Positions 23,999 through 28,494 of a stretch of 64,000 nucleotides of DNA are shown one piece after another; the stretch's first letter is position 1; each line of letters starts with the position of its first letter. Both the position numbers and the translations under genes were made by a program. The DNA comes from Sphingobacteriaceae bacterium (GTDB lineage Bacteria > Bacteroidota > Bacteroidia > B-17B0 > Aurantibacillaceae). Location: the NCBI GenBank assembly GCA_002319075.1, contig NVQB01000001.1, positions 1,178,001-1,242,000 of the forward strand, written 5' to 3'. The notes under the pieces were generated by a model. It saw nothing but the letters and a program-made list of their open reading frames with translations. It had not been told where the DNA came from and searched no databases.

Positions 23999-24026
23999 GA
24001 GTAGTCCGGTTAGTGGACTGCTCTTT
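23999..24026 (+). terminator. Weak hairpin, possible terminator
   Basis: GAGTAGTCC (23999-24007) pairs with GGACTGCTC (24015-24023), with one G-T pair, followed by only three T. It is downstream of the PAS-SpoIIE gene. Confidence 0.4.
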
Positions 24027-24546: not shown

Positions 24547-25224
24547 ATGAACCAGCCATTTGATATTACAGGAAAAACAGAAGTGGAACTTCTGGAACTA
24601 TTTACTGATATGCAATTTGAACTGGAACATGAAAAAAGATTCCATGGTACCGTCGATCATTTACTCGAAGGACTTCAAATTATCGATTTCAACTGGCGCT
24701 ATGTTTACGTAAATGAAGCTGTTGTGAAACAAAGTAAATTTTCACGGGAACAACTTCTCGGGCACTCCATGATGGAAATCTATCCAGGACTTGAGCAAAC
24801 AGAACTCTTTAAAGTAATGAGTTTATCGATGAACGCCCGGGTGCCACATCTTTTTGAAAATGTCTTTACATTTCCCGATAACTCTACAGGGTGCTTCGAA
24901 TTAAGCATACAGCCCACAGAAGGCGGTCTCACAATATTATCCAACGATATCAGCGAAAAGAAAAAGGCCGAAAAAGAAAAAGCAGAGCGTTCTGCTGCCC
25001 TGGAAAGGCTCATTTTTATGACCTCACACAACCTTCGCCAGCCCGTAACACAAGTACAAGGACTTGCTAACCTATTAAAAAGCCAGGTGCAGAGCCTCGC
25101 AGAGGCAAACCCTGAACTTAAAAAAATCGTCGACTATCTTATACACTCCGCATCTTCCCTCGATAACGTAACACGTGATCTCACCAGTTACATACAAAGT
25201 ATCGAACTTAAAGCAAAAAAATAA
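24547..25224 (+). CDS. PAS domain protein with histidine-kinase H-box but no ATPase domain
   Basis: A 225-residue cytoplasmic protein. A PAS domain (about 32-140, with FNWRYVYVNEAVVKQSKFSREQLLG and the terminal ILSNDISEKKKAE) leads through a coiled coil into a dimerisation/phosphoacceptor-like helix pair, with the H-box TSHNLRQPV (His161). The sequence then ends after the second helix; no N, G1 or G2 boxes of a HATPase domain follow, and the next frame (25226 on) does not encode one. So it is a sensor plus phosphoacceptor without its own kinase domain. It may act as a phosphotransfer or dimerisation partner for another kinase, or be a truncated kinase; the C-terminus ends in LKAKK with no sign of a frameshift in the following bases. 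Confidence 0.82.
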   Translation: MNQPFDITGKTEVELLELFTDMQFELEHEKRFHGTVDHLLEGLQIIDFNWRYVYVNEAVVKQSKFSREQLLGHSMMEIYPGLEQTELFKVMSLSMNARVPHLFENVFTFPDNSTGCFELSIQPTEGGLTILSNDISEKKKAEKEKAERSAALERLIFMTSHNLRQPVTQVQGLANLLKSQVQSLAEANPELKKIVDYLIHSASSLDNVTRDLTSYIQSIELKAKK

Positions 25225-25225
25225 G

Positions 25226-25561
25226 ATGATACGAACCGACAAATACAAAAAAGGAGTAATGGCTGTATCTAAAAAAGCTGCGCAGCTCAATCCTCTGTTA
25301 GGTTGCTACCAAGCCCATTATCTGAATGAAGAGGGCCGTTTTATGATACAATTAAGTAATTGTCAGCTAGAGATTGACATAGACATTGCGCGCGACTACG
25401 ATCAAAACTCACCTTTATTACACGAAGGTAGAATACACCAGGCAGCTTTTGCCTACAAACCCGATGACCGGGTTTACAAAGAAACAAACAAGATAGATCA
25501 GGCCTGGAGAAAATTATTTATCGATGTTCGGAAATCTTATCCGGGCGAGGCGGAGTTGTGA
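25226..25561 (+). CDS. Hypothetical protein, 111 aa
   Basis: Unrecognised small cytoplasmic protein. The ATG at 25226 comes directly after the stop of the PAS/H-box gene (1 bp apart), so the two are almost surely co-transcribed. A longer frame from 25175 would overlap that gene and is not preferred. Visible features: a basic N-terminus (MIRTDKYKKG), a beta-like middle (FMIQLSNCQLEIDIDIA) and a hydrophilic C-terminus. It might be a regulator or target of the upstream protein. Confidence 0.65.
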   Translation: MIRTDKYKKGVMAVSKKAAQLNPLLGCYQAHYLNEEGRFMIQLSNCQLEIDIDIARDYDQNSPLLHEGRIHQAAFAYKPDDRVYKETNKIDQAWRKLFIDVRKSYPGEAEL

Positions 25562-25670
25562 AGAAACATTACCACCCCTTGTTTGTCTGCTTTTTTTTAC
25601 TACATTTAGTAGTAGCGAAATTAAAAATGTAAGACGTTAACGTGAAAAAGGTGATTGAAAAATTTGCCTT

Positions 25671-25688
25671 CTGATTTTATTAAAGAAT
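25671..25688 (+). pseudogene. Remnant 3' end of a fourth T9SS paralogue
   Basis: These 18 bases read GAT TTT ATT AAA GAA TGA, i.e. D-F-I-K-E-stop, matching the K-F-I-K-E-stop terminus of the three paralogues that follow. It sits at the same distance from the next start as the end of the second paralogue does from the third. The shared leader continues past the stop. I read it as the relic of a deleted upstream copy. Confidence 0.6.
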
Positions 25689-25731
25689 GAAATCGAAAAT
25701 TCACGAAGACCTTGAATTTAAAACTATAAAC

Positions 25732-26637
25732 ATGAGTAAAAAACTCTTACCCATACTCATTATCTTAATTTCAGTAGTGCACTTAAACTCCCAATCGTTA
25801 TTTTGCCCCCCGGGCGCGGGATGGAATTTTGTTTATAATGCCTTTCTCATGGACCCTACGCCAGATCTCATAAATGTTGCCGCCTGGAACGGTGGAAAAA
25901 CTATTTTAAATGGGGAAACCGTTACTATTTTAAAACATAGCAAATTATTTGCTCAATGTAATATGACAAACATTTATGAATCTTATCTTAAAGAAGTTGG
26001 TGACACTGTATTTATAAAAAATATACATACAAATAATCAGTGGCGCATTTTATTTAATTTTGCTGCCTCTCCTGGTCACAGCTGGGTTACCTCATTAAGT
26101 TTCGCAGGTGTCTCTTTTACGGTCACTGTAGACAGCGTTGGCAGTATTTTAAAAAATAACCTTACGTTAAAGGTGCTTCATGCTTCCTACAAACAAAGTA
26201 ATCCTCCGCGTAGTTATAAAGCTGATATTATAGAGCGTATTGGGGGTTCTTATTTTCTTTTTAATTTTTACCATGGTCCTGTAAGCGATGGTGACTATAT
26301 GACCGAGTATTTATGCTATCAGGATAGCGCTTTAGGTCTGCTGCAATTTTCAAATAAACCTTGCTATTATTCTAATCTGACAAGCCTTTCAGAAAATAAT
26401 TTATCTTCATTATTTAGAATGTATCCTAATCCAACAAGCGACTTCCTTCACATTGACCTCACCAGGCAAGAAGAAGCCGAAGTAAAAATTATAGATATTA
26501 CAGGAAAAGAACGGAGCAACATCAGAGTAGAAGGAAGCGCAAAAATTCCCGTTTATGATCTTCCTAACGGAATTTATCTCCTGAATGTTTACGAAGGAAA
26601 AGAAAAAACTTTCAGCACTAAATTTATTAAGGAATGA
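25732..26637 (+). CDS. Secreted T9SS type A sorting domain protein, paralogue 1
   Basis: Secreted protein of 301 residues, function unknown. The start is the ATG at 25732 (MSKKLLPILIILISVVHLNSQ), a clear signal peptide; an upstream frame from 25687 would place 15 charged residues before it. The mature part begins SLFCPPGAGWNFVYNAF and is beta-rich with several Cys and Trp. The C-terminal 80 residues form a type A sorting domain (MYPNPTSDFLHIDL ... GIYLLNVYEG ... TKFIKE). It should be exported by Sec, moved across the outer membrane by T9SS and attached or released there. It overlaps the next paralogue by 4 bp (ATGA) and shares its leader sequence with paralogue 3. Confidence 0.85.
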   Translation: MSKKLLPILIILISVVHLNSQSLFCPPGAGWNFVYNAFLMDPTPDLINVAAWNGGKTILNGETVTILKHSKLFAQCNMTNIYESYLKEVGDTVFIKNIHTNNQWRILFNFAASPGHSWVTSLSFAGVSFTVTVDSVGSILKNNLTLKVLHASYKQSNPPRSYKADIIERIGGSYFLFNFYHGPVSDGDYMTEYLCYQDSALGLLQFSNKPCYYSNLTSLSENNLSSLFRMYPNPTSDFLHIDLTRQEEAEVKIIDITGKERSNIRVEGSAKIPVYDLPNGIYLLNVYEGKEKTFSTKFIKE

Positions 26638-27548
26638 AAAAACTTCTACCCATACTCATAGCTTCTATTTTCTTCGGAAACCTGAAATCTCAGTTAGTAT
26701 TTTGTCCGCCAGGAGCTGAGTGGCATTATTACTTTAACTGGTTCAACGGAGGAAAAATCAATGAACACGTCAAATATGTGGGAGACTCGCTGGATGGTTC
26801 TGACACTTTAAAAATTTTAAGTCACAAGCGTCTTCTTTTAGGATGTAGTCCCCTTATGAGTAAAACATTGATAAAACAAAAAGGCGACACCATCTTTTTC
26901 AAGAACAGCCAGACGCAAAATGGCTGGCAGGTCTTATACAATTTTGCAGCTACAACGGGCCAAAGCTGGAAGACAACGGTAGATAATGGCAATACATTTG
27001 TAATAACTTATACTTTTACGGTTGACTCCGTCAAACAGGTTTTAGTTAATGGCTCTAGCCTTAAAAGATTATATGTTAAAGAAAAAGCAATTTTTTCCAG
27101 TCAAAGCTACACCTGGAATACGACTACAAGTGTCACAGAACGTTTAGGCTGTGATAATTTTTTGTTTAATTTCCGACCTTATAATTTCGGTTGGTGTGAT
27201 GCCGATTATTTTGCTGAGCGCTTATGTTACAAAGACAATTCATTTGGCTTACTGAAGTTTACAGATAAATCCTGCGATTACTCTATTCCAGTTGGTATCT
27301 CTGAGCAAAGCCAGAACGCAAAGCTTAGAGTGTATCCTAATCCTGTACAAGATTTTTTATTGGTTGATTTAGAGTCTGCTTACGAAGTTGCATCTATTAT
27401 CACTGACATTTCCGGCAGGCCCTTAAGAAAAATAAAACTGGATAAAAATTCTAAAATAGATATCAGCGATCTATCCAAAGGGATTTATTTTTTATCCATT
27501 TTTGAAGGAACAGAAAAAAACTTCACGACGAAATTTATCAAAGAATGA
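26634..27548 (+). CDS. Secreted T9SS type A sorting domain protein, paralogue 2
   Basis: The most divergent of three tandem paralogues, 304 residues. Signal peptide MKKLLPILIASIFFGNLKSQ, then LVFCPPGAEWHYYFNWF, the same start of the mature domain as in the neighbours. Shared blocks: LYNFAATTGQSWKTTV, ERLGCDNFLFNF, and LCYKDNSFGLLKF. The C-terminal sorting domain reads RVYPNPVQDFLLVDL ... GIYFLSIFEG ... TKFIKE. It lacks the segment corresponding to VNVAAWN of copies 1 and 3, and has an extra ITYTFTVDSV stretch. Its ATG overlaps the stop of copy 1 (ATGA), suggesting translational coupling. Confidence 0.85.
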   Translation: MKKLLPILIASIFFGNLKSQLVFCPPGAEWHYYFNWFNGGKINEHVKYVGDSLDGSDTLKILSHKRLLLGCSPLMSKTLIKQKGDTIFFKNSQTQNGWQVLYNFAATTGQSWKTTVDNGNTFVITYTFTVDSVKQVLVNGSSLKRLYVKEKAIFSSQSYTWNTTTSVTERLGCDNFLFNFRPYNFGWCDADYFAERLCYKDNSFGLLKFTDKSCDYSIPVGISEQSQNAKLRVYPNPVQDFLLVDLESAYEVASIITDISGRPLRKIKLDKNSKIDISDLSKGIYFLSIFEGTEKNFTTKFIKE

Positions 27549-27588
27549 AATCGAATATTCACGAAGACCAGAGTTTAAAACTATAAAC

Positions 27589-28494
27589 ATGAATAAAAAA
27601 ATTCTACCCATACTTTTTTGTCTTGTGATTTTTTCAAGCCTAAAATCGCAGTCTCTATTTTGTCCACCGGGAGCTCAATGGCGCTACGTGTATAATGCAT
27701 TTAACCTGGATCCTACTCCTGAATTTGTAAATGTGGCTGCCTGGAATGCAGGAACTACAACTGTTAACGGCGAAACGGTCACCATTTTAAAACATAACAA
27801 ATTATTTTCACAATACAACATAAAGACTATTTATGAATCCTATCTGAAAGAAGTTGGCGATACGGTGTTTATGAAAAGTGCTGTTACAAATGATCAATGG
27901 CGTATCTTATTTAATTTTGCGGCAACAGCAGGTCAAAGTTGGGTTACACCTTTAAATTTTTCAGGCGTTTCCTTCACTGTCACCATCGACAGTGTAAGTA
28001 CTGCTATTACAAATGGAATAAGTTTAAAAACGCTTCATGCAGTTTATAATCAATCTAACCCTTCGCGTTCATATCATTCCACTATAACCGAACGCATCGG
28101 TGGCTACTACTACTTATTTAACTTCTGGCGCGGGCCCTATTCCGACGGAGATTACATGACTGACTTTTTATGTTATCAAGACAGTGCTTTAGGGCTTGTA
28201 CAATTTTCAAATAAACCTTGTAACTATTCAAATCTTACAGGACTTTCAGAAGAAAATCAAACTCGCATACTAAGAATATTTCCAAATCCCGCCGCAGATT
28301 TCCTTTACCTTGATGTTGCGCAGGGAAGGGAAACAGAAGCGAGAATTATAGACATTTCGGGTAAAGAAGTCAGAAAAATAAAATTTGATAGCAATTCAAA
28401 AATACCCGTTTATGATCTTCCTTATGGAATTTATCTTTTGACCATTTTTGAAGGCACAGAAAAAATTTACAGCACTAAATTTATAAAAGAGTAA
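27589..28494 (+). CDS. Secreted T9SS type A sorting domain protein, paralogue 3
   Basis: A 301-residue secreted protein very similar to paralogue 1. Signal peptide MNKKILPILFCLVIFSSLKSQ, mature start SLFCPPGAQWRYVYNAF, shared blocks VNVAAWNAGTT, GETVTILKHNKLF and YESYLKEVGDTVF. The type A sorting domain is at the C-terminus (IFPNPAADFLYLDV ... GIYLLTIFEG ... TKFIKE). The ATG at 27589 is used; an upstream frame from 27502 runs through the end of copy 2. The 40-bp leader between copies 2 and 3 nearly repeats the leader before copy 1. It is convergent with the HerA-like gene, with only 4 bp between the stops. Confidence 0.87.
   Translation: MNKKILPILFCLVIFSSLKSQSLFCPPGAQWRYVYNAFNLDPTPEFVNVAAWNAGTTTVNGETVTILKHNKLFSQYNIKTIYESYLKEVGDTVFMKSAVTNDQWRILFNFAATAGQSWVTPLNFSGVSFTVTIDSVSTAITNGISLKTLHAVYNQSNPSRSYHSTITERIGGYYYLFNFWRGPYSDGDYMTDFLCYQDSALGLVQFSNKPCNYSNLTGLSEENQTRILRIFPNPAADFLYLDVAQGRETEARIIDISGKEVRKIKFDSNSKIPVYDLPYGIYLLTIFEGTEKIYSTKFIKE

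Follow-up and report, generated by a model that had tools for sequence, protein, structure and literature searches.

Three genes for secreted proteins stand in tandem in the genome of a Sphingobacteriaceae bacterium, and two of them begin with a common leader, raising the question of whether this leader belongs to the array or has a history of its own. The genes lie in a 64,000-nucleotide stretch of contig NVQB01000001.1, the whole of which is referred to here as the window. The initial annotation read the locus as repeated duplication and loss of a surface protein, as in antigenic or adhesive variation. The array is instead an ordinary lineage-specific tandem duplication, and its leaders are copies of an element that is widely but patchily spread in Bacteroidota and that lies in frame almost only in export-like proteins. 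In window coordinates, the locus comprises:

25658–25690, + strand: tail-like relic reading K-N-L-P-S-D-F-I-K-E-stop, its TGA overlapping the ATG of the c1 leader
25687–25689, + strand: first start codon of c1, immediately 5' of the leader element
25687 or 25732–26637, + strand: c1, open reading frame of 316 aa (from 25687) or 301 aa (from 25732) with a signal-peptide-like start and a T9SS C-terminal sorting domain
25690–25737, + strand: leader element, copy 1, 48 bp, in frame with c1, KSKIHEDLEFKTINMS (model E 1.1e-14)
26419–26628, + strand: Por_Secre_tail domain of c1 (E 6.5e-13, 49.2 bits)
26634–27548, + strand: c2, divergent paralogue without the leader element, with an empty site GAATG/AAAAAACTTCTACCC (the slash marks the junction) and an ATGA overlap with the c1 stop
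27330–27539, + strand: Por_Secre_tail domain of c2 (E 8.3e-12, 45.7 bits)
27548–27594, + strand: leader element, copy 2, 47 bp, out of frame with c3, its short upstream frame ending in TAA (model E 9.6e-11)
27589–28494, + strand: c3, secreted paralogue closest to c1
28276–28485, + strand: Por_Secre_tail domain of c3 (E 6.2e-11, 42.9 bits)

That these are three tandem T9SS paralogues on one strand was confirmed. Like other T9SS cargo of this kind, all three match Por_Secre_tail (PF18962), each above the gathering score of 27 bits; they differ in their N-terminal ~200 residues, which have no Pfam match. Judged only by sequence pattern and a hydropathy threshold, their N-termini carry a putative Sec signal peptide of typical form. 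The divergence ascribed to c2 is borne out by an amino-acid identity of 43% for c1/c2 against 66% for c1/c3; the latter, which had been called nearly the same, are the closest pair but too far apart to be a recent copy. A search with c1 against solved structures gave matches mainly to the sorting domain, and a scan for loci related to c1 returned no relative. A structure prediction for c1 from the three-sequence alignment (mean pLDDT 48.9, mostly beta) was too poor for a fold search.

The reading confined to the array, in which tandem duplication with a private leader serves antigenic or adhesive variation, draws on the three tandem copies and on a mosaicism of sites between their segments. 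Against it stand the occurrence of the leader throughout the genome and across Bacteroidota, and the surroundings of the array itself. The family is present in 20 of the 60 genomes searched, own included, and nowhere among them outside the own genome do members stand side by side; the own genome holds only one further full-length homologue, at C1:3900664. Counting the own genome, 23 of the 40 genomes in the genus have the neighbouring HerA gene at the cut-off used, and in none of the 22 other congeners with HerA does a family member lie beside it (flanks of at most 1.5 kb, some shortened by contig ends). No switching arrangement was seen; the inverted repeats around the array are short (12–25 nt, 72–93% complementarity). 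Tandem Repeats Finder reported no array of short units at the c1–c3 locus, and Rfam gave nothing at gathering scores between window positions 24000 and 30000. We consider the reading scarcely tenable and find no support for the proposed variation. The open reading frame just upstream (25175–25558) has no Pfam match and none in 39 congeners, the latter making synteny unusable on that side of the array.

The array nevertheless retains traces of how it arose. Immediately before c1, GATTTTATTAAAGAATGA (25673–25690) encodes D-F-I-K-E-stop, and the 33 bases preceding the c1 leader agree with the c2 coding tail at 21 of 33 positions, including 10 of the 12 beside the leader. Matches this good occur at random window positions with frequencies of 7e-5 (21/33) and 1.8e-4 (10/12). 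Among the sequences upstream of other ATG-started open reading frames of at least 100 codons, with the relic itself and the c2 upstream left out (671 reduced to 669), 21/33 was reached by 0 of 669 and 10/12 by 1 of 669; counting those two, 2 and 3 of the 671 do so. Alignment of the junctions revealed that the three genes, with their leaders, each start on a TGA overlapping an ATG (GAATGA): c2 on the c1 stop, the c3 leader on the c2 stop and the c1 leader on the relic. The segment is thus, judging from these matches, likely a tail relic marking the edge of a duplicated segment. The annotators had taken it for the tail of a lost fourth copy; as the only reading of the relic we rejected this, a duplication edge being enough. 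Of the postulated repeated duplication and loss, the tandem duplication and the duplicated leader stand, while the sign of loss may be a mere edge.

Recombination between the copies, which the initial annotation proposed to check, is weakly supported by informative sites. In the body, 169 sites pair c1 with c3 against 118 for the other two pairings, while in the signal-peptide part the figures are 4 and 20 (Fisher 6.6e-5 against the body). In the tail, 31 sites pair c2 with c3 and 10 pair c1 with c2, compared with 55 and 63 in the body (Fisher 0.0018). Contrasts among these three segments give Fisher values of 6.6e-5, 0.0018 and 0.0046, but the segments were picked after looking, and signal peptides change fast; such mosaicism is only suggestive of exchange between the copies.

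The leaders of c1 and c3 are 89% identical over ~82 bases, and c2 has none, as had been noticed; what did not hold is that the leader is a feature of the array. Of 31 array-family homologues, four of them from the own genome, c1 and c3 are alone in carrying it, and blastn of the own genome with the c1 leader produced matches at the starts of unrelated genes. These copies belong to an element that begins with AAATCRAAGATTCACGAA and ends with TGAGT, with an A-rich, variable middle. Where both ends are present (125 sites), its length is 44–48 bp in 108, the extremes being 36 and 62. Gene-associated copies lie directly after the start codon (ATG^A), and a second start-like codon, (A/G/T)TGAGT, lies near the 3' end. 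The start of c2 represents the empty site: at the junction in GAATG/AAAAAACTTCTACCC, c1 carries 48 bp and c3 47 bp. By inspection there is no terminal inverted repeat, the ends AAATCRAAG and TGAGT not being complementary. No clear target-site duplication was seen at filled and empty sites, where A-rich flanks blur the exact ends by a few bases. No consensus RNA structure was predicted for the element, and the folding of six copies is unremarkable (z-scores −0.51 to 1.71). Three copies (L335, L360, L361) are longer by ~28 bp: an extra segment is inserted within them where the conserved core ends, and the frame is kept.

How far the element extends was determined by pattern and model searches. 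A pattern allowing up to three mismatches found 12 sites in the own genome and its reversed control none; a sequence-only model built from 22 copies, which include those of the own genome by construction, likewise gave 12 clear copies there (E 0.002 or better), which stand at the starts of genes. Two weaker matches, L161 and L163, have the appearance of decayed leaders where export-like proteins start; the other weak model matches in this genome do not. In 39 congeners the 16 pattern matches are at chance level by count (17 in the reversed control), and we counted only the seven that stand in a leader-like context. Across Bacteroidota the core, with up to two mismatches, was detected in 21 of 395 genomes, at 43 sites against 2 control matches, five of the 43 looking like chance by context. 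A search with an 18-base core lacking the ATG matched 100 of 249 genomes in one large genus belonging to the same class, against 10 control matches; context was read for 110 loci among the matches listed. The exact pattern occurs in five records of named genomes: a Flavobacteriales MAG, MAGs labelled Chitinophaga and Chitinophagaceae, Flavobacterium terrae and a MAG labelled Klebsiella, whose sequence we suspect to be from Bacteroidota.

Searches beyond chromosomes yielded little. A 25-residue leader query had no match among plasmid proteins and five, at E 2, among phage proteins; at the DNA level six records of plasmids and 18 of phages matched the leader, all of them over less than 80% of the query (E 0.5 to 6 among the matches listed), and IMG/VR contained no match to the exact pattern. 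One leader-bearing host, L262, matches DUF4141, which we take to be a conjugative-transposon protein, making it a possible vehicle between genera. Locus L189 has no Pfam match. We found no description of the element in the titles and abstracts of the literature searched, most subscription papers being outside our reach.

Insertion is visible where filled and empty sites can be compared. Orthologues without the element start directly with the signal peptide in all those examined from the genus, for LolA (31/31), a binding protein (6/6) and YceI (10/10), families named by Pfam and examined in smaller numbers than the matches listed. Within non-coding repeats of single genomes, the element is present or absent between identical flanks. 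Its presence is lineage-specific, and patchy within a genus. Copies recur in more than one genome group at the genes for LolA, for a thioredoxin-like protein and for a short-chain dehydrogenase, as they do at similar AHSA1-like genes (L123, L276), a hint that genes are preferred, inherited or transferred and not hit at random. The AHSA1-like genes have an out-of-frame leader in two different genera; the Pfam match is weak for one, and the short piece available of the other has none. At L207:3621–5327 three leaders are neighbours: two continue in frame into export-like proteins, and the third precedes a frame of 41 residues. At L205:5500–12600, non-coding repeats are dense, and modules including the leader replace one another in hairpin-like loops; Rfam gave two matches at this repeat-rich locus, both below gathering scores.

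Dispersal ahead of unrelated genes is also what a mobile promoter or upstream regulatory cassette would show. The conserved unit begins only after the start codon, and the sequences upstream are not common to the copies. This position of the conserved part argues against a promoter cassette, which we set aside, and we consider any reading of this kind very improbable.

The relation of the element to reading frames is more informative. Of 171 distinct parsed sites, 83 are in frame with a gene, 24 are start-proximal and out of frame, and 64 are neither. All 83 in-frame copies lie directly after an ATG, as do 17 of the 24 out-of-frame copies and 7 of the other 64, these seven including cytosolic-looking, short and broken frames. 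In the survey genus 49 of 121 parsed sites belong to neither gene-start class, many of them in other repeats, and the element is therefore not confined to start codons. The 107 hosts were grouped into 58 families, by a clustering that lumps families with only the sorting domain in common: 43 in-frame-only, 11 out-of-frame-only and 4 mixed. With export-like defined by a hydropathy threshold and no trained predictor, 41 of the in-frame-only families are export-like and 2 are not, against 2 and 9 of the out-of-frame-only and 3 and 1 of the mixed families. The contrast between frames is strong (Fisher 5e-7) and persists (9e-6) when two doubtful families, L134 and L345, are removed from the nine. 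By the identical rule 20 of 55 open reading frames in the window are export-like, a background that the out-of-frame hosts resemble and from which the in-frame hosts depart. Several proteins behind out-of-frame copies receive Pfam names of cytosolic enzymes; their families include NIF3, ribulose-phosphate epimerase, peptidase S51 and a saccharopine dehydrogenase domain.

So marked a preference for exported proteins could reflect selection on the peptide, MKSKIHE...MSKK being a functional N-terminal extension of the signal peptide comparable to ESPR or YSIRK. Several observations agree with this: the export-like character of the in-frame-only families, a spacing of 45 between the two starts in 50 of 62 measured in-frame copies, and synonymous variation at the Ser codons (TCG 48 and TCA 33 in 83 in-frame copies), which peptide selection would allow but the search pattern itself also allowed. 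In addition, the second start (ATG, GTG or TTG) is absent in 8 of 74 in-frame copies with a placeable S-K junction, which means that translation most likely begins at the first ATG. The codons for His and Lys tell against it. All 79 His codons in in-frame copies are CAC, which makes up 42% in the host bodies; no synonymous change is found, though CTC, CGC and AAC do occur at this position and 4 copies have another residue. The second Lys is AAG in 63 of 65 copies, against 15% in the AAA-rich host bodies, and another residue replaces it in 18. The search by pattern over-represents conserved copies, and orthologous sites are not independent, but this bias is not hiding CAT, because CAT was found 24 times, all in the unclassified, largely non-coding class. 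This fixation of CAC and AAG points to conservation or recent descent of the DNA and not of the peptide alone, and we rejected peptide-level selection as the sole cause. Identical DNA also lies out of frame before cytosolic-looking genes and in non-coding repeats, and orthologues manage without the extension. When ten N-termini of 40 aa were compared with Pfam and NCBIfam at E up to 1, no match covered residues 1–15; for two of them, weak NCBIfam matches begin at residues 16–18, as though the usual start were there. An extended signal peptide is accordingly a distinctly improbable account.

We consider it probable that the leader is a small dispersed mobile DNA insertion at start codons, whose in-frame copies are tolerated where the signal peptide is removed. 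The element would insert directly after the host start codon, and the second start-like codon near its 3' end would let the gene start from either end. A copy whose length is a multiple of three would place ~16 extra residues (M-KSKIHE...MS-K) ahead of the signal peptide; export should remove this extension, permitting in-frame insertions in exported proteins, to which it may be harmless. Before cytosolic-looking proteins it would be mostly out-of-frame copies that survive, translation of the protein then beginning at the second codon. In the window, the element presumably entered the start of the common ancestor of c1 and c3, and tandem duplication then gave the two genes, c2 retaining the empty start.

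A serious rival to insertion is a useful expression element: a short translated or untranslated 5' segment of the mRNA, acting in cis to raise or regulate translation, that spread for its usefulness. Strong conservation at the level of letters, the location at start codons and the lack of marked structure would suit such a segment, and five out-of-frame orthologues of the NIF3 family keep the core unchanged although the bases after it differ. These points are tempered by the patchy presence within a genus, by the many copies in non-coding repeats, by the absence of any common host function among those seen and by a search that favours conserved copies. We judge this explanation unlikely, and retain the mobile insertion as the better one.

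Short as it is and without evident inverted repeats, the element may move as DNA or through an RNA copy, and may be targeted to start codons, not merely survive there. In its boldest form, the proposal is of a mobile element of at most ~50 bp that actively selects start codons as its targets, perhaps by way of an RNA intermediate or of DNA exposure linked to translation, with start-like codons at both ends that keep the host gene unsilenced, and that so provides exported proteins across Bacteroidia with an N-terminal peptide that can be removed. This version is possible but doubtful. No clear target duplication and no movement was observed, and no mobilising enzyme was identified in these comparisons. 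If the explanation is true, the element would be among the smallest insertion elements known to us, many genomes of Bacteroidota would have annotated protein starts shifted by it, and the contrast of in-frame copies in exported proteins with out-of-frame copies before cytosolic-looking ones would constitute a natural experiment on the tolerance of change at protein starts.

Several known systems share part of this description. MITEs and REP/BOX-type repeats are likewise non-autonomous short repeats dispersed in chromosomes, from which the leader differs in that its filled and empty sites show neither a terminal inverted repeat nor any target duplication that is clear. The ESPR, YSIRK and KxYKxGKxW segments are conserved N-terminal stretches ahead of a signal peptide, as the leader is when in frame; it differs in matching no Pfam or NCBIfam model, in its fixed codons and in occurring out of frame and in non-coding repeats as well. 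Putative mobile promoters are repeated segments at the 5' ends of unrelated genes, for which our literature search gave no direct paper; they resemble the leader in that position, but its conserved part starts after the start codon. The closest kind known to us is the Rickettsia palindromic element, described as a small dispersed repeat of ~150 bp inserted in frame into unrelated protein genes, with a conserved peptide (PMC10969869). It is longer than the leader of mostly 44–48 bp and palindromic by name, where the leader has no predicted structure, and the leader occupies start codons and is found in Bacteroidota; what the two have in common is insertion in frame, which for the leader amounts to 83 sites in 43 in-frame-only and 4 mixed families.
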